38,209 nt of DNA from Halococcus hamelinensis 100A6 (GTDB taxonomy: Archaea; Halobacteriota; Halobacteria; Halobacteriales; Halococcaceae). Location: the NCBI RefSeq assembly GCF_000336675.1, contig NZ_AOMB01000032.1, positions 158,564 to 196,772 on the forward strand, written 5' to 3'. Made by a program: the position numbers and the translations under genes. How positions within the stretch are numbered: the first letter of the stretch is position 1; each line of letters starts with the position of its first letter. Shown in pieces: positions 21,061 through 34,135 of this stretch. The notes below the pieces were generated by a model. It ran no database searches. It was given only the letters and a program-made list of their open reading frames with translations, and had not been told where the DNA came from.

Positions 21061-21588
21061 TCAGCGGGACCGACCGAGACGGAGTTTCTGCTGGCTGTGG
21101 AAGTAAACGAGCCCCGAGACCAGGTACAGTCCGACGAACCCGCCGGCCCACAACGAAACCGGGAGGGCTGCAAACAGGGGCATCCCGAGGCTCGAGAGCG
21201 AGACGACGACCAGCGAGACCAGCCCCACCACGAAGTAGTAGGTGGCGTACGGTACCCCCTCGTTCGGGACGACCTCCATGTACACCTCGACCTGGTGGGC
21301 GTCGTTGAGGAGGTGGACGACCTTCCGGTTCTGCTCGTACTGGATGATCCCCAGGTCGTCGAGTTTCGGGAGGTGGGTCTGATGCAACGAGTTGTAGACG
21401 CTCTCACGCTTGTTGCGGGGCGGCGGTGACTCCCCCGTCTCGATGCTCGCCAGCTCCTCGGAGAGTTCCCGTAGCGTGACGGTTTCGTCCCGACTTCTGA
21501 GGTACTTCAGCGTCCGTGCCCGTCTCCTGTTTCGCAGCACGTCGTGTATCTCGTGTTCGGTGAGTCGTTGATTCGTTGACGCTGACAT
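21061..21588 (-). CDS. DUF7344 helix-turn-helix protein with two TM segments
   Basis: A 175-aa protein. Residues about 8-95 form the haloarchaeal DUF7344 winged-HTH domain: LTEHEIHDVLRNRRRARTL, VTLRELSEELASIETG, SVYNSLHQTHLPKLDDLG and a beta wing IIQYEQNRKVVHL. Two TM helices follow (about 115-135 and 140-163). Such proteins look like membrane-tethered transcription regulators. The ATG at 21588 gives the family N-terminus; in-frame starts further upstream add a basic stretch not seen in the family. The likely promoter lies in the AT-rich region at 21690-21725. The gene is between the small-protein cluster and the glycan locus, so a role in surface regulation is possible but unproven. Confidence 0.82.
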   Translation of the reverse strand: MSASTNQRLTEHEIHDVLRNRRRARTLKYLRSRDETVTLRELSEELASIETGESPPPRNKRESVYNSLHQTHLPKLDDLGIIQYEQNRKVVHLLNDAHQVEVYMEVVPNEGVPYATYYFVVGLVSLVVVSLSSLGMPLFAALPVSLWAGGFVGLYLVSGLVYFHSQQKLRLGRSR

Positions 21589-22240
21589 GTATTTGAGTGG
21601 GTGTCGTCTGCGGGGTGCTCGATCGAGCCGTCCACAACGGACGAGAGTGCTCCACCGGATCGGTTCGGCCGGCGGCTCCCGTTCGTTGGTTAAGCCAGCC
21701 ATAACCCTATACATAGATAACATAAACGCTTAGCTGTCAAGGGTATTTATGTACGTACGAATGAATATCACGGGAATCGAGGGGTACACTATCCACAAAC
21801 GCCGAAAAAACATACGGATACCGTCCTATTTGTAATCATCGCTGTTCTATAATAACCGATCGATCGATACGGATTATGGGGTTGCTGTCGGGAATCTACG
21901 GCGGGGAACGACGACATCGTTCGGGACGATCACGACCGTTTCCCTCGATGGAAGCCGATCCGACAGCCGTGCCCGTGCCACCGCGTGCACCGTCGCCACG
22001 CCCTTCGGCAGCTCCCTGCCGCCGGTTCGAGGGGAGGCCGACGGGCCGACTACCCAGTCCCCCTTGCTCTCGTGCGTACCGGCGACCGACCAGGCCACGG
22101 AACGGACGGTTACGCCGGCACAACGTCTCAATGAACGGTCCGATACTGGGTTGAGTGGCCGCATAGGTAAGTCGTCCCCGGACCGAACGAGAGTCGATGA
22201 TCGGCCCGTACCCGAACACCAGTCGTCGGCCCACGAGACG
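21589..22240. other. Long AT-rich divergent region before the glycan locus
   Basis: About 650 bp. The segment 21700-21875 is clearly AT-rich and holds a TATA box (tctataata, 21846-21854) and the self-complementary run CGATCGATCG. A frame of 92 codons starts at the ATG 21876, exactly at the leaderless distance, but its product is Arg/Pro-rich and basic, unlike real proteins here. The region may be a long leader of the glycosyltransferase gene or contain a decayed gene. Confidence 0.4.
21846..21854 (+). promoter_or_regulatory. Strong TATA box upstream of the glycan locus
   Basis: The element tctataata lies about 27 bp ahead of an ATG at 21876 and about 390 bp ahead of the first glycosyltransferase start. 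It is probably the main rightward promoter of the locus. Confidence 0.45.
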
Positions 22241-24678: not shown

Positions 24679-25929
24679 CTACTGGCCGGCCATCTCGGTC
24701 CCCGAACGCCCACCGATCGGGAGCTGATTGAGAACCCCGTGGATGAAGGGGCCAGGATCGTCGAGGTGGAGGTAGTCGAAGTGTGGCTGGTCGTAACACG
24801 ACGAGAGGACCTCCCACACCGCGGTTCGGAAGGCGGGCGGTTCGATGGCGGGATAGCGCTTCCGGAGGATGCTCCAGAGATACTGGAATTCGCCGAAGAG
24901 GAGGTGATTGCCGGCTCCCACCTCGTACTCCGTTTCGATGCGGTCCGGCTCGCCCGTCGCCAGCAGCCAGTGCGCGTGGGGGAAGTCGGCCCCCGCGATG
25001 ACGTCCATCTCGATCGACGCCCAGACGCGGGGGTTGATCTCGGTGAACTTGTACTCCCCGGTGTCTGGCTCCTTGAGGAACTGGACCGAGGCGAGGCCGT
25101 GCCAGTCGAGGTGGTCGAGCATGGCTCGCCCCATCTCCTCGATCTCGGGGTCGTACATCGTCTCCCGGTAGACGCTCGCGCCGCCGGCGTAGGATTTCCC
25201 GCGGATCTGGCGCTTCTGGCACGTCAGCACCGATTTTCCCTCGTCGTAGAGCCCCCTGAAGCCGTATTCGGTGCGGGTGTCCCGGACGAGTTCCTGGACG
25301 ATCGGAACGTGGTCGGGGACGTGGCGACCGCTCTTGTGCATCGTCTCCTGTATCGCCTCCAGGTCGGGTTCGGTGCCGGCGGCGGTGTAGATCACCTCCA
25401 TCTTCCCCTCACACTCGTCCTCCGAGAGCGAGTCCACGTAGTCGGGCGTGAGGATCGAGTACCGGGGTTTGACGATCAGCTCCCGGCTCCAGTCGTCGAC
25501 CTCGTCGAAGGAGTACGTCTCCGGGATGGCGATCCCGGCCTCGCGTGCGGCCTCGGCCTGTCGAAGCCGGTCGTGGACCGTCCGGACCTGCTCGAAGGAC
25601 GGCCAGAGCGCGACGACGTGTTCCTCGAACTGGTCGCGATACTTCCCCAGCACGTAGCTGTCGACCTCCCGATGGGGAACGATCGTGTAGACGTCCGGCC
25701 GCTCGGCGAGCGAGAGGAGAGCGTCCTTGTAGGCCAGGAGGTCCTCGTAGGGCGAGGGGACGATGGCCGTCTCATCACAGTACCGGGACGCGAGGGCCGG
25801 TCGGTCCCGGTGTTCCGAGACCGCGATGGTGTGGACGCCGCGTTTCCCGAGCGAGCGAAGACACGAGATGCTGCTCCCGGAGTCGTTGATCGGGAGCAGT
25901 ACCGAGCGACCATCGGATTGTGGTTTCAT
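24679..25929 (-). CDS. ATP-grasp ligase-like protein
   Basis: A 416-aa ATP-grasp protein. The N-terminal domain (VLLPINDSGSSISCLRSLGKRG) is the pre-ATP-grasp Rossmann-like fold, with SRYCDETAIVPSP. The ATP-grasp core shows ELIVKPRYS (ATP-binding Lys), PIVQELV, and FTEINPRVWAS, in which Glu and Asn bind metal. Such proteins form amide or ester bonds between a carboxylate and an amine through an acylphosphate. In haloarchaeal and bacterial surface loci they are common and often uncharacterised. A palindromic TATA-like element (catagctatg near 25954-25963) is centred about 29 bp from the ATG, giving a leaderless transcript. It is at the end of a leftward run of glycan genes. Linking amino acids to a sugar acid is a reasonable guess. 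Confidence 0.8.
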   Translation of the reverse strand: MKPQSDGRSVLLPINDSGSSISCLRSLGKRGVHTIAVSEHRDRPALASRYCDETAIVPSPYEDLLAYKDALLSLAERPDVYTIVPHREVDSYVLGKYRDQFEEHVVALWPSFEQVRTVHDRLRQAEAAREAGIAIPETYSFDEVDDWSRELIVKPRYSILTPDYVDSLSEDECEGKMEVIYTAAGTEPDLEAIQETMHKSGRHVPDHVPIVQELVRDTRTEYGFRGLYDEGKSVLTCQKRQIRGKSYAGGASVYRETMYDPEIEEMGRAMLDHLDWHGLASVQFLKEPDTGEYKFTEINPRVWASIEMDVIAGADFPHAHWLLATGEPDRIETEYEVGAGNHLLFGEFQYLWSILRKRYPAIEPPAFRTAVWEVLSSCYDQPHFDYLHLDDPGPFIHGVLNQLPIGGRSGTEMAGQ

Positions 25930-26162: not shown

Positions 26163-26999
26163 TCAACGGTGTGCGTGAACGAAGTAGACGCCGGAGCGCC
26201 GGTCCGCCGGCCCGCCGAGGGGTGTGAGCGAGTAGCCCGCCGCCCGGAGAAACGCCTCGACCTCCTCGGCGCTCGTCCCGTACCGACGACACTTCGCCGA
26301 GTGAACTTCGAGATAGACCGACTCGACGGTATCGAGAAGATCCCCCAATCCACGGAGGACGAGGAGTTCCGCGCCCTGGACGTCGATCTTGACCACGTCG
26401 GGCGGCGCGAATTCATCGTCGAGGAGGTCCGCACCGCGGCGGGTCTCGACCGTTCGACCGACGCCGTCGGGTGCGAGATAGTGATGGCCGCCGCCGGCGT
26501 CGACGACTTCGGACGAGAGGGTCGTCGTTCCGTTCTCGTCCGAGAGCGCTATCGGCGAGACCGTCCAGCGTTCGGCGGGAGCGGTGGTTTCGAGGTTGGC
26601 CCGGAGCCGCGACCGATTCACCGCCTCGGGTTCGAACCCGACGACCTGACCGGTGGTCAGCGCGCTCGCGACGAAGCAGGTGTACGTCCCCACGCACGCC
26701 CCGACGTCCCAGACCGTCTCGGTGCCGTCGAGGCCCGAAAGCAACGCCGCGACCAGGTCCCGTTCACCACCGAGCGTCGTCGCCCGGCGGTACTCCGCCA
26801 CCGTCGAAACCCCGAACCGAACCGTTTCGCCGGCGACCGTCGTCTCGACGGTGTCGCCGGCCATCGCCGCCCGAGCCATCCAGTAGGCCGTCTCGACACG
26901 CCAGTAGACCGACGAGACGAACGGCGGAACTCCGTATCTGGCGGCCAGCCGATACGGGGCGTTGCGCAGTCGGTCCTTCGTCGTTCGAGTGTCTTGCAT
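26163..26999 (-). CDS. FkbM-family SAM-dependent methyltransferase
   Basis: A 278-aa methyltransferase. Motif I is VWDVGACVGTYT (96-107), followed by VVGFEPEAVNRSRLRANLE (acidic residue that binds the SAM ribose). The FkbM signature DVVKIDVQGAELLVLRGL lies at 201-218. FkbM proteins O-methylate hydroxyls of sugars and secondary metabolites. Inside this locus it probably methylates a glycan residue, which often caps or modifies chains. It follows the C-Ala-like gene by 72 bp on the same strand and precedes the ATP-grasp gene by 233 bp. The N-terminal 45 residues are an amphipathic helical extension. Confidence 0.87.
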   Translation of the reverse strand: MQDTRTTKDRLRNAPYRLAARYGVPPFVSSVYWRVETAYWMARAAMAGDTVETTVAGETVRFGVSTVAEYRRATTLGGERDLVAALLSGLDGTETVWDVGACVGTYTCFVASALTTGQVVGFEPEAVNRSRLRANLETTAPAERWTVSPIALSDENGTTTLSSEVVDAGGGHHYLAPDGVGRTVETRRGADLLDDEFAPPDVVKIDVQGAELLVLRGLGDLLDTVESVYLEVHSAKCRRYGTSAEEVEAFLRAAGYSLTPLGGPADRRSGVYFVHAHR

Positions 27000-27071: not shown

Positions 27072-27734
27072 TCACGCGGGGGTGAGCGGCCCCGTGCGCA
27101 GGAGCCGCTGTCCGACCCGTTCTGCGGTCTCGCCGAGCGCTCCCGTCGCGCCGCCGCCGGCGGCCAGCCGGTCGTTACCACCGGCCCCGCCGCCCGCCTC
27201 CTCGGCGATCTCGCGGCCGATGGCCGTCGCGCTGAACTCGTCCGCGAGCGCTTCGTCGACGGCGACGGCGAACGAGCCATCGCCGTGGGCGACGACGAGG
27301 GTGATCCCCTCGCCGTCCATCGCGCGCTTCGCGAGCGCCCGCGCGTCGGGGAGTTCCCCGTCCTCGAACTCGACGACGCGAACGGTCGGGTCGTCACCGC
27401 CCGATCCGTCGTCGACCGACCGATCCTCCGAGAGCGATCCCCACCACGAATCGGCCCATCGCGTGCGGACGGCATCGAGCTCGCGCCGCAGGTCGCGGCG
27501 TTCGTCGTCGAGCGCGGTGACCCGCTCGGGGAGGTCCTCGACCCTCGCATCGAGCCGTTCGGCCGCTTCCCGCGCCGCGCGTCGGTTCTCGCGGTCGACG
27601 TCGTTCGTGTTCGACTCCCAGTCCTTGCTCACGGTCAGACTCTCGCGAACCGTCCGTTCCCGCCGTCGCCAGTAGAGTGTCGTTCCGACGAGTGCGATGC
27701 TCGAAGCCAAGCCGACGCGTGTGGTGTTATTCAT
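27072..27734 (-). CDS. Membrane-anchored protein with AlaRS C-terminal (C-Ala / DHHA1)-like domain
   Basis: A 220-aa protein. Residues 7-22 form one TM helix, and 45-95 a likely coiled coil (EDLPERVTALDDERRDLRRE). Residues 118-212 resemble the DHHA1/C-Ala domain that ends alanyl-tRNA synthetase: TVRVVEFEDGE, ITLVVAHGDGSFAVAV, SATAIGREIAEEAGGG, and the Gly-rich loop GGGAGGNDRLAAGGG (181-195). In AlaRS this domain binds the tRNA elbow and is preceded by the same kind of coiled coil. No catalytic or editing HxxxH motif is present. The ATG overlaps the upstream FemAB-like gene by 8 bp, which suggests co-translation. It may bring tRNA or another nucleic acid to the membrane; this is inference. DHHA1-type domains in phosphodiesterases are the alternative parent. 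Confidence 0.65.
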   Translation of the reverse strand: MNNTTRVGLASSIALVGTTLYWRRRERTVRESLTVSKDWESNTNDVDRENRRAAREAAERLDARVEDLPERVTALDDERRDLRRELDAVRTRWADSWWGSLSEDRSVDDGSGGDDPTVRVVEFEDGELPDARALAKRAMDGEGITLVVAHGDGSFAVAVDEALADEFSATAIGREIAEEAGGGAGGNDRLAAGGGATGALGETAERVGQRLLRTGPLTPA

Positions 27735-28767
27735 GGATGAATCCCTTGAGTTTCGGCCCCAGGGTGGGGTGGGTTATCAGCGGAGCCAGCCGAGGCGTGA
27801 TCGTCGCGAGCCGTCCGTAACCGTCGAGCGAAGCGCGTCCAGCCCGCTCGGGTGGACTGACGAAGCTCACGAGCGGGTACTCGAACCCGCCGAACTGTGC
27901 TTTGAAACCGTGAACGCTGGAGCCGCGTCGCGAACGCCCGAAATCCACGACCGAGCGTCCGGCGCGACAGGCCCGCTCGATCGACTCGACGTAGAGCAGG
28001 TGGTTCGGTCGGTGGTCCCAGTGGGCGCGCTTCGAGGCCGGGGTCCACACCATCGTGGTGTCGCCCCACTCGAAGAGGAACACACCGGCGATCGGTTCGC
28101 CCGCGCGCTCGGCGAGCAGAACCGTGGCGGCCTCTCCGAGCCCGTCGGCGAGCGACGCGAAGAATTCCTCGGGGAACTGCGGGCTCCCGAGACGACGCAT
28201 CGTTTCGAGATACAGCGGGTAGAACTCGGCGACCGTGCCCTCGGTCACGGTGACGCCGTGGTCGCGGGCGGTTCGCACGCACCGGCGGATGTCCTTCTCG
28301 AACGTGGACTCCCAGAGCGTCTCGAACGGCCGATCGAGCGACAGTCGGATCGACGACCCGGTCGGAACCCCGCCGTAACCCGCCTCGTTGTACCCGCTCA
28401 CGCCGCTCCAGCCGCCGTCCTTGACGATGCGGGTGTCGCCGTCGAGTTCGGACAGGACCGACGTCGTGGAGACGGCCTCCTCGACCAGCGGAAAGCCGTA
28501 CTCACAGAATGGGTTGACCACACTGTGGCCGACCCCCTCCCGGACGCTGAACCCCGGGACCATCCCTCGGGTCGCGCCGGAGTCGGGATCCGTCAGGAGG
28601 CGGTGTCGGGGCTCGTACCCGAACGCCGTCTCGACGGCGGCCGCCCACTCCGGGGTGTGAAACACCGTCGCAGCGGGGTGGTCCTCGACGATGGACCGCC
28701 ACTCCGACGACCGAGTGGACACGGGTTGGGTCTCGACGTCGCTACCGTCGATCGTCGTCCGGCTCAT
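27727..28767 (-). CDS. FemAB-like / GNAT-fold transferase (XrtA/PEP-CTERM-type)
   Basis: A 346-aa protein with two GNAT-like halves. The opening ATVFHTPEWAAAVETAFGYEP and later MRRLGSPQFPEEFFASL, AGVFLFEWGDT and FGRSRRGSSVHGFKAQFGG are, from memory, those of FemAB-like proteins tied to exosortase/PEP-CTERM exopolysaccharide loci (acetyltransferase_6 fold). Bacterial FemXAB enzymes transfer amino acids from aminoacyl-tRNA onto peptidoglycan precursors; other members N-acylate sugars. It overlaps the deacetylase gene by 4 bp upstream and the C-Ala-like gene by 8 bp downstream. The deacetylase could create the amine it acylates. The acyl donor (aminoacyl-tRNA or acyl-CoA) is not determined. Confidence 0.75.
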   Translation of the reverse strand: MSRTTIDGSDVETQPVSTRSSEWRSIVEDHPAATVFHTPEWAAAVETAFGYEPRHRLLTDPDSGATRGMVPGFSVREGVGHSVVNPFCEYGFPLVEEAVSTTSVLSELDGDTRIVKDGGWSGVSGYNEAGYGGVPTGSSIRLSLDRPFETLWESTFEKDIRRCVRTARDHGVTVTEGTVAEFYPLYLETMRRLGSPQFPEEFFASLADGLGEAATVLLAERAGEPIAGVFLFEWGDTTMVWTPASKRAHWDHRPNHLLYVESIERACRAGRSVVDFGRSRRGSSVHGFKAQFGGFEYPLVSFVSPPERAGRASLDGYGRLATITPRLAPLITHPTLGPKLKGFIHE

Positions 28768-29687
28768 CGTTCACCCCCGATCCGAAGCGGGGCGGTGCCG
28801 TCGGTAGCCACCTCGCCCGGGTCGGCGTACCCGTCCGCGACGGCACCGGCCGTCCCGAAGGCGAACTCGTCGAGCAGCGCTTCGAGCTTCGCCGCCAGTC
28901 GCTCGATCCCGTGGAAGCTAACGAAGCGTGCGTGTGCCGGGATCGGGGCGTGTTCGGCCGCGGACCGAACGGCCGGGTTGAACTCCCAGGGGTGGAAGTA
29001 GATCGTCGCCGGATGCCCGCGTGCGTTGAGGCTCCGTATCCCGCGTTTGACGGGCCAGGTCGGCAGCACTCGCGCGTAGAACCCGCCAGCGACCGGCAGC
29101 CGAACCCGCGGGTGGAACACCGCGAGCGGGAGTTCGACGAGCCGACCGTCGGCCTCGTCACCCGAATCCGTGAACGGCGCTCGCGGGTCGAGGCGGTAGG
29201 GCCGAACCGGTGCGTCGGCCACACCGTACATCGGCGTCTTGACGGGGAAGACGCTGGAATCGTACCGATAGCCGGCGGCTTCGAGCGCCTCGATGGCCCA
29301 CGCCGTCCGGGGGGTCACCGAGAAGTTGGGCGCACGAAATCCCGTCGGCCACGTTCCGGTCGCGTCGTGGATGGCGACGGCGCTCGCTTCGAGCTCCGCG
29401 GCGAACTCGTCCCTGTCGAGTTCGAACAGCGGCCGGTGGGTGTGGCCGTGTGAGCCGACCTCGTGACCCGCATCGGCGATCCGTGCCACGAGGTCCGGCC
29501 GTTCGTGGGCCAGTTCGCCGACGACGAAGAACGTCGCCCGGACGTCGAACCGGTCGAGGATAGCGAGAACGCGTTCGACCGATGCCTCGACGTGTGTCGC
29601 CGGGTCCGTCACTCGCTCCCGAAGCAGCGTCGCCGAGTACCAGTGTTCGACGTCGAACGAGAGGACGTTCGTCACCTCGTCGCTCAT
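28764..29687 (-). CDS. Polysaccharide deacetylase (NodB fold), PEP-CTERM-locus type
   Basis: A 307-aa NodB-type deacetylase. Catalytic elements are visible: SFDVEHW (Asp12), SHGHTH (His80 and His84 metal ligands), GFRAPNF (Arg118) and ATIYFHPWEF near the end. The order and the block YRYDSSVFPVKTPMYGVADA are, from memory, those of deacetylases found with FemAB in bacterial exosortase-linked exopolysaccharide loci. It should remove N-acetyl groups from a polymer, leaving free amines. No signal peptide is visible, so it may act on lipid-linked intermediates in the cytoplasm. The ATG at 29687 overlaps the GT2 stop as ATGA; the extra upstream codons are inside the GT2 gene. Confidence 0.88.
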   Translation of the reverse strand: MSDEVTNVLSFDVEHWYSATLLRERVTDPATHVEASVERVLAILDRFDVRATFFVVGELAHERPDLVARIADAGHEVGSHGHTHRPLFELDRDEFAAELEASAVAIHDATGTWPTGFRAPNFSVTPRTAWAIEALEAAGYRYDSSVFPVKTPMYGVADAPVRPYRLDPRAPFTDSGDEADGRLVELPLAVFHPRVRLPVAGGFYARVLPTWPVKRGIRSLNARGHPATIYFHPWEFNPAVRSAAEHAPIPAHARFVSFHGIERLAAKLEALLDEFAFGTAGAVADGYADPGEVATDGTAPLRIGGER

Positions 29688-30787
29688 CGGCTCCTCCCGT
29701 CGATCCCGGCGTTCTCGAAGTAGGTGCTGAGCGAGTGGAGGACGATCGCGGTGAAGCACGCGAAGATACCGACCAGCACGAGGAACACCGCGCTGAGCGA
29801 GAGCCCGACCGGAAACGTTCCCGACTGGACGTAGCTGACGACCGCCCAGTAGCCGACGCCAAGCCCGCCGAAGGTGAGCGAAAAGCCCGGCAGCGCGAGC
29901 GCCGTGAGCGGGCGTTCGCGTTCGACGGTCTTCAGGATGTTCTGGAGGAGGATCATCCCGTGGGAGAGCGGGTCCTGACTGCTCGCGTTCGCCACGTCGT
30001 AGGTGACCGTGATCGGGACCTCCTCGACGGGGTAGTCGTGGTGGTGGATGTGATAGAGGATGTCCGTGCTCGCGTCCATCCAGTCGCCGATGGTCATGTC
30101 CTCGGCGAGGGTCTCGATCGCCTCCCGGTCGTACGCCCGAAAGCCGCTCTGTGTGTCGCTCATGCGCGAGTCGGCTCGCACGATGCCCATGCTCAGGTTC
30201 GTGAGCACGTTGATGACGCGGAGCCCCACGCGGCGGTAGAACGGCGCGTTCGATACGGCCCCGTCCACGAACCGGCTGCCGATGACGAGCGGGGCGTGCG
30301 TGGTGGCTTGCGCCCTGACCAGCCGGGGAACGTCCGCGGGGTCGTGCTGTCCGTCGGCATCGAGAACGACGAGATGGGTCACGTCGTGACCCTTCGCGGT
30401 CTCGAAGGCGGTCTTGAGGGCAGCACCGTAGCCCCGATTCCGGTCGTGGGCGCTGACGACCGCGCCAGCCTCCGCGGCCCTGATCGCGGTGCTGTCGCCG
30501 CTCCCGTCGTCCACGACCAGCACCAGATCGGCGTGCTCGGCCACCCGCCGCACCACGTCGCCGATGGTGGCTTCCTCGTTGTACGCCGGGATCGCTACCA
30601 TCACGTCGGGGTCGGCGTGGGCGGATGCCGACCCCGACCCCGACGTGTGTTCGGTCGGCTGTCGGCCGTTTTCGGACCTATCGCTTTCGAGGGGGTGAAC
30701 CCGGTCCGGAACGTGGTCGTCGACGACGTCGACGGCCGAACCCACCCCCTCACTCGCGGAAACGCCGTCAGCAGTGTGTTCGCTCAT
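29684..30787 (-). CDS. GT2-family glycosyltransferase with C-terminal TM segments
   Basis: A 367-aa protein. After an acidic, Ser-rich N-terminal extension (about 60 residues), the GT-A domain begins with VMVAIPAYNEE, followed by LVVDDGSGD and the metal-binding DADGQHDP (143-150). The order resembles dolichol-phosphate sugar synthases (DPM1/AglJ-like), with the lipid-facing RMSDTQSGFRAYDREA stretch. Two C-terminal TM helices (about 295-350) hold it at the membrane. It probably starts or charges a polyprenyl/dolichyl-phosphate sugar. The ATG at 30787 fits a TATA box at 30821-30830. It is the first gene of a tightly overlapping leftward operon with the deacetylase, FemAB-like and C-Ala-like genes. 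Confidence 0.87.
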   Translation of the reverse strand: MSEHTADGVSASEGVGSAVDVVDDHVPDRVHPLESDRSENGRQPTEHTSGSGSASAHADPDVMVAIPAYNEEATIGDVVRRVAEHADLVLVVDDGSGDSTAIRAAEAGAVVSAHDRNRGYGAALKTAFETAKGHDVTHLVVLDADGQHDPADVPRLVRAQATTHAPLVIGSRFVDGAVSNAPFYRRVGLRVINVLTNLSMGIVRADSRMSDTQSGFRAYDREAIETLAEDMTIGDWMDASTDILYHIHHHDYPVEEVPITVTYDVANASSQDPLSHGMILLQNILKTVERERPLTALALPGFSLTFGGLGVGYWAVVSYVQSGTFPVGLSLSAVFLVLVGIFACFTAIVLHSLSTYFENAGIDGRSR

Positions 30788-31304
30788 TCTCCTCCGGGCC
30801 TTCGTTGACCGTATCGGACGATAGATATTCTCCAATTGTGTGTTTCTGAACGGCGTATTTGGTGACGAACACACACTCAAACGCGAAATTATTCCACGAT
30901 TCGGGCAGATAGTTGCGGGTAGAACGCTCGAACTGAAAGGATAGAACAACGAATATTCCTCGATGGCACAACCGAGGGAGCTATCGAATCAACCGACGAG
31001 ACCGTCGCTGCTCGGGCCGAGGGACGGGGCTCGTTCCCGGGACCCCAAGCACGGCTGACTCGATGGACGCGGAAGGGACCGAATCGAGCGGCCGATACGT
31101 TCGGCAGTGGCGCTCGGCACACGTCGTCGGAGGTGCGAGCCTCGTGACGACCGGCCGTTCACCGCGTTCGCACTGACCCCCACGAACCAGTGCAGGCGTC
31201 CACGACGCGTCGTCCGAAACGGCCCCGGGAACCGTTTTCGCTCGTCCGGTGACCCGTTCAACGGGACAATAGTCAATCGGCCCGGAGGACGACCGTCCGC
31301 TACA
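30788..31304. promoter_or_regulatory. Divergent promoter region GT2 operon / beta-helix lipoprotein
   Basis: A 517-bp region. For the leftward operon, gaatatctat (30821-30830, minus strand) gives a leader of about 12 nt. An inverted repeat TGTGTGTT (30837-30844) / AACACACA (30868-30875) lies just upstream of that box. For the rightward gene, caatagtcaat near 31267 is a TATA-like element. Nothing coding is supported in 30880-31304. Confidence 0.45.
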
Positions 31305-32636
31305 ATGGGCCAGGAACGTGTCTCGATCGGACGGCGAACGTTCCTGGCGCTCGTCGCCGCGGGCAGCGGTACCATCGCCGCCTGCTCGTCGCCGAACCGG
31401 CCCGCAGAACGACCCCCCACGGAGATCCCAATGTCAAACCTCGATCGCGTATACGAGATCACGGAGAACTACCACGTCGGACCGAAACGAGAGCGCCCGG
31501 AACCGGGTGACGCCGCGGGAACGATCTGGGAGGCGACCGACCCGGGCCCGGCGGGTGCGACCCGGCGGTCGCTCTCCGACGGCGACCGCTGGATACCGTT
31601 GGTCGTCGAGCCCGAATCGCCGAGGGCGACCGGCGAGTACCACCTCACCGCCGACGACGGCTTCGAGGGGATCCAGAACGTGATCGACCGAACGGGCGGC
31701 AACGTCGTGATTCGGCTCGCGCCGGGGACGTACGTCGGGCGCGAACTCACCCTCGAACACGGCGTCGTGCTGGTCGGGTCGGGTCGCAACGCGACCACGC
31801 TCAAGCTCGAGGACGGGGCGAACGCGGACCTCGTGACGACGCCCGACCTCCCCGACCGAAACGTGATGGAGTGTACCCTCCGGGACATCACGTTCGACGG
31901 GAACAGGGCGAACAACGCCTCCGGGAACGCGGTGTACGGGGCGTTCTGGAACAGTCGGTTCGTGGACTGCAACTTCTACGCCGCACCCGGGAACGGGTTC
32001 TGGCTCGCCGGGTCGACGGCGAGCACCGACGACAACCAGTTCCGTGGCTGTCAGTTCCTCAACAATCGGGCCGCCGGGCTCCGCGGTGGCGGCAACAAAC
32101 GTTCCTATCCCTCCGTCGGTGTCGCCCGCGTCGATACCAACTGGTTCGGCTACAATGGGGGCCCCGCCGTCACCGCCCGGGGGGAATCCTGGAAGATCAG
32201 CGATTCGAAGTTCTACGCCAACGGGCTGGACGGCGACCCGACGATCGAGTTCGACCGGTGTAGCTACTCGAACGTCACCGGCTGCGACATCCACTCGGAC
32301 TACCCCGACCACCCGCTCATCCTGGTCTCGGCGTCGAAGGGGGTCGAGAGCATCGGCAACCAGATCAAGAGCAACGACCTGCGGGGGAACTACCGGTCGG
32401 CGGTAGGGTGTCTCGTCGACGGGAACGACATCGTGGCGCTCCAGATCCACGACAACACGATACAGAGCAACGGTCGCTCGGGGTCGGGGATCGTCGCGCG
32501 CGAGACCGGACCGGGGTCGTTCGTCGACTGTTCGTTCAGGAACAACACGTTCGTCGGCACCACGACCGGTCGTGCGGTCAGACTCCCGGACAGCTGGCGC
32601 ACGAACGGGAACATCAACGCCGGCCGAATCGATTGA
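31305..32636 (+). CDS. Tat-exported lipoprotein with right-handed beta-helix
   Basis: A 443-aa secreted protein. The N-terminus has a twin-arginine motif SIGRRTFLAL (Arg10-Arg11), a hydrophobic segment and the lipobox-like IAAC (Cys27), as in haloarchaeal Tat lipoproteins. From about residue 115 onward there are short repeated turns rich in Asn and Gly, for example RDITFDGNRANNASGN, VDCNFYAAPGNGF and RGCQFLNNRAAGLRGG. These form a right-handed parallel beta-helix as in pectate lyases and polysaccharide-modifying enzymes. It would be anchored outside the cell. A role in trimming, binding or epimerising the locus's polysaccharide is plausible; catalytic residues were not identified. ATG 31305 sits right before the Tat signal. 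Confidence 0.8.
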   Translation: MGQERVSIGRRTFLALVAAGSGTIAACSSPNRPAERPPTEIPMSNLDRVYEITENYHVGPKRERPEPGDAAGTIWEATDPGPAGATRRSLSDGDRWIPLVVEPESPRATGEYHLTADDGFEGIQNVIDRTGGNVVIRLAPGTYVGRELTLEHGVVLVGSGRNATTLKLEDGANADLVTTPDLPDRNVMECTLRDITFDGNRANNASGNAVYGAFWNSRFVDCNFYAAPGNGFWLAGSTASTDDNQFRGCQFLNNRAAGLRGGGNKRSYPSVGVARVDTNWFGYNGGPAVTARGESWKISDSKFYANGLDGDPTIEFDRCSYSNVTGCDIHSDYPDHPLILVSASKGVESIGNQIKSNDLRGNYRSAVGCLVDGNDIVALQIHDNTIQSNGRSGSGIVARETGPGSFVDCSFRNNTFVGTTTGRAVRLPDSWRTNGNINAGRID

Positions 32637-32707: not shown

Positions 32708-34135
32708 ATGAGTCAGTCGACGATCGTTCGGTCCTCGTTCGGAACGTTCTTCGCCCGGGTCGCGACCTCCGTCTCCGTGTTCCTCGCCGTCTTCTATCTC
32801 GCGACCACCGGCGCGTCGGTCCTCGGGGTGTATTCGCTGTTCATCGCCGTCGTGGAGGTCGTCGGGCTGGTGACCGACGCCGGCCTTTCCGCGGCCGCGA
32901 AGAAACGGATCAGCGAGGGCGTCGAGCGCGACGAGTTCTTCACCGCCGCTCTCCTCACTCGTCTCGGCATCTTCGTCGGCGTCGCGGCCGTTCTGGTCGG
33001 CTTCAGGGGCGAGATCACCGCCTACATCGGCCACGAGTTCGCGGTGCCGTTCTTGTTGCTGTGCTCGCTCACCTATCTCGTCCAGTCGACGCTCTACGAA
33101 TCCCTGAGCGGCGAGAAACGGGTCGCCAGAGCCGGACTGCTGGGGTTCGTCTCCAACGGCGGCCGTCTGGTCGCGTGGATACCCTTGTTGGCACTGGACT
33201 ACGGCCTGTTCGGGATCCTCGTCGGGGTTTGGCTCGGGCAGGTGCTGGCCGTCGTCGTCGGCGTGGGCATGCTCTCGTTGCGGCTGCGACGACCGGCACG
33301 GCGACACTTCGAGAGCCTGTTCCGGTTCGCGAAGTACAGCTGGATGGGGGCGCTCCAGGAGACCTCCTGGATCTGGACGGACACGCTCATCCTCGGGGTC
33401 TTCGTCGCCCCCTCGTTCGTCGGGGTCTACGAGCTGAGCTGGCAGATCACCGGCGTCCTGTTCTTCGTCGCGTCGGCGATCAGTTCGGCGCTGTTCCCGA
33501 ACATCAGCGAACTCGCGGCTCGAAACGACTACGACCGGGTCACCGACCTCCTCGAACGCTCGCTGGTCTACGTCGGTATCATGTCGATCCCGGGGTTCGT
33601 CGGCGGGGTCATCTTCGCCGAGCCGATACTTGGGATGTTCGGCGACGAGTACCGGGTCGGTGCCACCGTCGTCATCGTGTTGCTCCTCGCGCGCGCGTTC
33701 CACAGCTACGAGGTGGTGTTCGGCGAGGCGCTCAACGCGCTCGACCGTCCGGACCTGATGTTCAGAACGAACCTCGTCTTCCTCGTGTTGCTCATCTCGC
33801 TCAACGTCGTCGGTATCGTCGTCTTCGGGTGGGTCGGTGCGGCGTTCGCCACGACGGTGGCGATGGTGGTCCGGACGGCGCTCTCGTTCTACTTCATCCG
33901 GTCGATACTCTCGTTCACGGTTCCCACGAGGGAGATCGGCTTCGAGGTCCTCGCCGCGCTCTTCATGGGTGCGTGTCTCTGGGTACTCACCCCGCGTTCG
34001 ACGCTCGCGACCCCGACCGTCGTTCTGTTGGTCGGGACGGGAGCGGCGATCTACGCGCTCACCGTTCTGGTGTTGATAGAACGGGTACGCATCGAGGCGT
34101 CCGGGCTCGTCTCGAACGTCCGGACGCTTCTCTAG
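32708..34135 (+). CDS. Oligosaccharide flippase (Wzx/MATE-like, polysaccharide transporter family)
   Basis: A 475-aa polytopic protein with about 12-14 TM helices. It begins STIVRSSFGTFFARVATS, typical of polysaccharide-export flippases, and contains amphipathic loops such as FRFAKYSWMGALQETSW and SALFPNISELAARNDYD that mark the family. It should move lipid-linked oligosaccharides or repeat units across the membrane to the outside (AglR/Wzx role). It lies 71 bp downstream of the beta-helix gene with a weak TATA-like element near 32643. Its stop codon overlaps the stop of the convergent DUF2206 gene in a shared CTAG (34132-34135). Confidence 0.87.
   Translation: MSQSTIVRSSFGTFFARVATSVSVFLAVFYLATTGASVLGVYSLFIAVVEVVGLVTDAGLSAAAKKRISEGVERDEFFTAALLTRLGIFVGVAAVLVGFRGEITAYIGHEFAVPFLLLCSLTYLVQSTLYESLSGEKRVARAGLLGFVSNGGRLVAWIPLLALDYGLFGILVGVWLGQVLAVVVGVGMLSLRLRRPARRHFESLFRFAKYSWMGALQETSWIWTDTLILGVFVAPSFVGVYELSWQITGVLFFVASAISSALFPNISELAARNDYDRVTDLLERSLVYVGIMSIPGFVGGVIFAEPILGMFGDEYRVGATVVIVLLLARAFHSYEVVFGEALNALDRPDLMFRTNLVFLVLLISLNVVGIVVFGWVGAAFATTVAMVVRTALSFYFIRSILSFTVPTREIGFEVLAALFMGACLWVLTPRSTLATPTVVLLVGTGAAIYALTVLVLIERVRIEASGLVSNVRTLL

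Follow-up and report, generated by a model that had tools for sequence, protein, structure and literature searches.

The window analysed here, a 38,209-nucleotide stretch of a contig of Halococcus hamelinensis 100A6, carries a cluster of surface-glycan genes in which two genes overlap on the minus strand. One encodes a FemABX-type transferase of 346 aa (27727–28767, minus strand; assigned by profile, model and alignment), and the other a membrane-anchored C-Ala-like protein of 220 aa (27072–27734, minus strand) that, from sequence, profile and model, consists of an N-terminal anchor, a helical hairpin and a DHHA1/C-Ala globular domain with the motif GGGAGGNDRLAAGGG. Both reading frames, and the 8 bp common to them (27727–27734, minus strand, ATGAATAA), are as described in a first-pass annotation of this DNA; the FemAB frame ends with H-E-stop and the C-Ala protein starts with M-N-N within the overlap. 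The FemAB start overlaps by 4 bp with the gene of a polysaccharide deacetylase (28764–29759, minus strand; DUF3473 and Polysacc_deac_1), an XrtA-type relative scoring 209.5 bits against TIGR03006 (XrtA polysaccharide deacetylase), short of the curated cutoff of 276.2. A family 2 glycosyltransferase (GT2) related to AglJ/PpgS-type glycosyltransferases is encoded at 29684–30949 (minus strand), and a MATE/Wzx/MurJ-type flippase of the same cluster at 32708–34135 (plus strand). Downstream of the pair are an FkbM-family methyltransferase (26163–26999, minus strand) and an ATP-grasp ligase-like protein (PRK12767-type/ATPgrasp_Ter; 24679–25929, minus strand); in loci of Halococcus and Halocatena the latter stays next to the pair, and it is a potential second amide-forming enzyme of the cluster. 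Two further genes recur near the cluster: a right-handed beta-helix protein with a Tat/lipobox-like N-terminus (RRTFLALVAAGSGTIAACSS) at 31107–32636, conserved in several genera, and a winged-helix-like protein with C-terminal hydrophobic segments at 21061–21723, present in several loci and a possible regulator.

The presence of a C-Ala/DHHA1-type domain in the 220-aa protein had been proposed from the letters of the sequence, and the proposal was borne out by the fold tests. Taken alone, the protein scores 17.9 bits against Pfam DHHA1, under the cutoff of 25.9, and matches the archaeal AlaRS family TIGR03683 at 1.8e-8; the match is limited to the C-terminal end of that model (positions 743–886 of 902), and the catalytic and editing domains of AlaRS are absent. 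All 15 members of the C-Ala family match TIGR03683 independently. When the 15-member family profile was compared with the PDB, the C-Ala domain of Archaeoglobus fulgidus AlaRS was retrieved at 1.5e-15 (2zvf), with hairpin and globe both covered (profile positions 49–196, beginning at residue ~49), along with 3wqy (5e-14) and the Aquifex C-Ala (3g98, 1.4e-11). The AlphaFold model, built from the 15-sequence alignment (mean pLDDT 84.3, pTM 0.63), has a long helix at residues 4–60, of which the membrane stretch is a part, another helix at 65–103 and an alpha/beta domain at 118–214, and a Foldseek search with it places AlaRS C-Ala first (2zvf, 7.2e-9; 3g98, TMt 0.79). The hairpin resembling the C-Ala helical subdomain is thus delimited by model and profile alignment at residues ~45–103 (27426–27602, minus strand), and the globular (DHHA1) subdomain by profile, model and Foldseek at residues ~118–214 (27093–27383, minus strand). 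Within the GG-rich motif, G182, G185, G186, A191 and G193 are invariant in the 15 family sequences; the genome's own AlaRS has GGGGGGPADFAQGGG there. These matches are far beyond chance, and the 220-aa protein carries a genuine C-Ala domain.

The first-pass annotation had also named a transmembrane helix in this protein, which was confirmed with a reservation on its hydrophobicity. Residues ~4–21 are hydrophobic and are followed by WRRRERTVR, and the anchor with its conserved juxtamembrane motif, outlined by alignment of relatives, spans residues ~4–32 and ends in LYWRRRERTVRESL (27639–27725, minus strand). Nearly all of the 15 homologues have the anchor at this position, a basic flank behind it (the flank charge is 0 in L044) and the YW followed by a basic stretch (YW-RRER motif); on the other hand, the stretch in the window is only weakly to moderately hydrophobic, with a mean Kyte-Doolittle value of 0.94, the relatives reaching up to 2.3. 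These features indicate a single-pass membrane protein whose C-Ala domain, by the positive-inside rule, is probably in the cytosol.

The tree of C-Ala domains resolves three separate groups: the family of the C-Ala protein as one clade (94/88), AlaRS (99/97) and AlaX-like proteins of ~410 aa (100/99), the last being labelled from their size and C-terminal C-Ala. Since the family forms a clade of its own, the protein is no recent AlaRS fragment. The idea that it is a decayed remnant of AlaRS, or a chance neighbour without function, draws on the single-sequence Pfam score under the curated cutoff; we rejected it as scarcely credible, being contradicted by conservation, as the reading frame with its motifs is found in all 15 genomes, the clade is distinct, and the position and overlap beside the FemAB gene are fixed. 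An origin from RecJ/NrnA-type (non-AlaRS DHHA1) proteins was likewise rejected, with scores far under those of AlaRS both with the family profile (only ~0.4 in the PDB) and in Foldseek, where RecJ-type DHHA1 ranks later.

As to what the domain may bind, the net charge of its globular part, -9, counts against tRNA, although the C-Ala of the genome's own AlaRS is at -19 and most other haloarchaeal AlaRS and AlaX-like C-Ala at -10 to -18. An acidic globular domain is expected for haloarchaea, and the lower acidity, as calculated from the sequence, would be mildly favourable to tRNA binding. In AlaRS, C-Ala is the major tRNA-binding module, and its target is the tRNA elbow (PMC10036535; PMC10485164). 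Human C-Ala has lost tRNA binding and binds DNA instead (PMC10485164), and therefore the C-Ala fold alone is no proof of tRNA binding. A different role would be the recruitment of AlaRS instead of free tRNA, the helical subdomain forming a mixed dimer with the C-Ala helices of AlaRS; the synthetase would thereby be drawn to the membrane and charge tRNA with alanine next to the FemAB protein. Such a role would agree with the importance of prokaryotic C-Ala for AlaRS dimerisation via the helical subdomain (PMC10485164), with the inclusion of the helical part in the family match to C-Ala (profile positions 49–196), and with the single full-length AlaRS, having its own C-Ala, encoded in the genome (L002). 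However, the residues invariant across the family lie mostly in the globular part with the GG motif, which would be needless for a mere dimerisation adaptor, and we consider AlaRS recruitment unlikely.

The partner protein of 346 aa resembles aminoacyl-tRNA-dependent FemX and Sba18 by sequence and by its predicted fold. Its best named family is TIGR03019 (FemAB family, XrtA/PEP-CTERM system-associated; 2.5e-36), which is matched by all 14 aligned sequences; the score of the window protein, 125.4 bits, is short of the curated cutoff of 260.35. In the PDB, the FemAB profile retrieves the aminoacyl-tRNA-dependent peptide synthases 9wqy and 9wqw (2.9e-10, for Sba18, and 2.1e-9), then FemX at 4e-8 and, at 1.7e-7, lipid II:glycine glycyltransferase, followed by a single match at 0.6. 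With the structure model (pLDDT 81, pTM 0.83), the top 11 Foldseek hits are all FemX/FemA or Sba18/Sbb17 (2.5e-14 to 1.3e-12), and the double-GNAT fold is recovered with 7z6a at 2.5e-14 (TM 0.63–0.66 over 337 columns). Residues F288-K289 are invariant in 14/14 aligned sequences, and their counterparts in FemX Wv, towards the end of that match, are Phe304-Lys305; catalytic lysines have been reported as Lys305 in FemX and Lys329 in DhpH-C (PMC12945691).

Alternatively, the FemAB protein might use acyl-CoA or another activated donor, with the C-Ala-like protein repurposed as a structural or scaffolding subunit, and the pair would then function without aminoacyl-tRNA. In Pfam it scores best with Acetyltransf_6 (1.8e-19), a GNAT family of wide scope; CoA-using tandem GNATs share its fold (Foldseek ranks 22 and below), and the ligand of C-Ala can change in evolution (PMC10485164). 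By contrast, the top sequence and structure matches are all aminoacyl-tRNA users, no acyl-CoA P-loop motif is conserved in the FemAB-clade alignment, and a CoA enzyme would hardly be expected to have, as its conserved neighbour, a protein with the fold of a tRNA binder; we give this reading a low probability.

The conservation of the pair, proposed as a check in the first-pass annotation, was found to be strict. Among 293 haloarchaeal genomes of the order, the C-Ala family occurs in 16 (one gene being cut by a contig end) and the FemAB clade, with membership set at >150 bits, in 15, each of which has the C-Ala gene adjacent (15/15). The co-occurrence table (15/1/0/277) gives a Fisher value of 3e-24, uncorrected for relatedness, and pairwise identity in one family correlates with that in the other (r 0.87). 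The genes overlap by 8 bp in most loci examined and by 4 bp in two, with a short gap in L040, and this arrangement suggests translational coupling. The pair is kept in L040 and L042, although the deacetylase and GT2 genes no longer adjoin it there. This reciprocal conservation strongly supports a functional link between the two genes.

Named carriers of the FemAB clade include Halococcus, Halocatena, Actinarchaeum, Halobacterium bonnevillei, Halalkalicoccus and Salinarchaeum. The cluster is also found in the same-genus genome G069 and on contig_88 of Halococcus thailandensis, and a further annotated pair lies on a plasmid of Halocatena salina, where NCBI names its members 'GNAT family N-acetyltransferase' and 'DHHA1 domain-containing protein'. 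For the scan of contigs the FemAB alignment was used, the C-Ala alignment being too variable, and a degenerate-pattern scan of genome contigs with the C-Ala protein gave no confirmed relatives (0). No match beyond Halobacteriales was obtained with a strict cutoff in 393 genomes sampled across the phylum. Two loci depart from the common arrangement: in the 16th genome (G231; L044:9608–11488) the C-Ala gene is divergent beside a FemAB gene from a different subfamily, an arrangement seen in no other locus, and in G241 (L048:8646–9715) the FemAB gene is split in two frames next to an intact C-Ala gene, by frameshift or sequencing error.

FemAB relatives also occur without this partner. A second haloarchaeal FemAB subfamily (type 2; L074–L078), 27–30% identical, occupies glycan clusters of a similar kind, where in two cases it adjoins a deacetylase >50% identical to that of the window, and no C-Ala gene was found beside it at the five genes examined; none is annotated beside the bacterial XrtA-type FemAB genes viewed. 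The bacterial XrtA-type relatives and this second haloarchaeal subfamily are mostly without the partner. The existence of such relatives means that the C-Ala partner is dispensable for FemAB function in general, and that the C-Ala protein is an addition observed in one archaeal lineage.

The frequent gene order around the pair is GT2, polysaccharide deacetylase, FemAB, C-Ala protein, FkbM methyltransferase and ATP-grasp protein, with a flippase and glycosyltransferases nearby in many loci. It is this gene neighbourhood that points to a glycan as the putative acceptor. Charged tRNA could also serve a module that modifies a membrane lipid or a protein, making the pair a functional analogue of MprF, which would suit the membrane anchoring of the C-Ala partner and the fold shared with MprF-type domains (Foldseek 4v35, 3.5e-10, below the top 11 hits and above the CoA-using GNATs). 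Against this stand the surrounding glycosyltransferases, deacetylase and flippase, and the nearest bacterial FemAB relatives, which lie in clusters for exopolysaccharide next to a deacetylase of this type. Moreover, neither the N-terminal flippase domain nor DUF2156 of MprF-type proteins gives a Pfam match in the 346-aa protein, and its fold match to MprF is weaker than that to FemX. We therefore regard a lipid or protein acceptor as rather improbable.

FemX-type enzymes use charged tRNA, and the reading we favour, and hold to be moderately probable, is that the C-Ala protein is a membrane tRNA holder feeding a transferase of FemAB type, which would attach amino acids to a glycan or its lipid carrier. 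The inference of the first-pass annotation, delivery of alanyl-tRNA or another charged tRNA to the membrane for the aminoacylation of a surface glycan, is thereby supported in part. The two proteins would form one functional module, in which the FemABX-type protein would be an aminoacyl-tRNA-dependent transferase forming amide bonds, and the C-Ala protein a dedicated tRNA recruiter, anchored by its single N-terminal helix with the C-Ala domain in the cytosol. The latter may grip the elbow of (alanyl-)tRNA, alanine being the favoured amino acid, and, at the membrane face, hold its charged acceptor end out to the transferase. A glycan made by the cluster, or its polyprenyl carrier, at the cytosolic leaflet would be the most likely acceptor, with an amine freed by the polysaccharide deacetylase encoded next door as a plausible site; the product could then be flipped outward by the MATE/Wzx-type flippase.

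The individual domains have known counterparts. Like AlaRS C-Ala (2zvf, 3wqy, 3g98), the C-Ala protein combines a helical subdomain with a DHHA1-fold globe and a GG-rich motif, but it is devoid of the catalytic, tRNA-recognition and editing domains of AlaRS, has an N-terminal membrane anchor instead, and belongs to a separate clade. The haloarchaeal AlaX-L-like proteins (~410–440 aa) also have C-Ala outside AlaRS, but with ~250 aa more ahead of it, and again form a separate clade. The FemAB-like protein shares the double-GNAT fold, the Phe-Lys catalytic motif and the absence of a conserved CoA motif with FemX Wv, Sba18/Sbb17, DhpH-C and PacB; it differs from FemX and the tRNA-dependent natural-product enzymes in being archaeal, in its surface-glycan cluster and in its constant membrane-anchored C-Ala partner. 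To our knowledge, archaea have no murein. With the XrtA FemAB proteins of TIGR03019 it has in common the XrtA-type polysaccharide deacetylase next door, whereas it scores under their cutoff (125 vs 260 bits) and a C-Ala partner is missing from the bacterial loci examined. MprF and LysX, the latter being the LysRS-fused MprF of mycobacteria, resemble the pair in joining tRNA handling to transfer at the membrane and in a related fold; however, theirs is a transferase fused to a flippase or synthetase, while here the anchor is separate and C-Ala-only, and the transferase is of the FemAB branch, not DUF2156. Open-access full text, the coverage of which is partial, yielded no account of a pair like this or of haloarchaeal FemAB function, and the free-standing anchored C-Ala as the constant partner of an archaeal FemAB protein appears to be new.

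We see an even chance that this free-standing anchored C-Ala, a third lineage beside those of AlaRS and the AlaX-like proteins, diverts charged tRNA to a glycan-aminoacylating FemAB protein in Haloarchaea. If true, archaea would draw on charged tRNA to decorate their cell-surface polymers, and would do so by a new route, in which the tRNA-gripping tail of a synthetase has been detached, anchored in the membrane and permanently paired with a transferase. The proposal yields testable predictions on the amino acids of haloarchaeal glycans, and may also hint at what the XrtA-associated FemAB family does in the exopolysaccharide clusters of bacteria.
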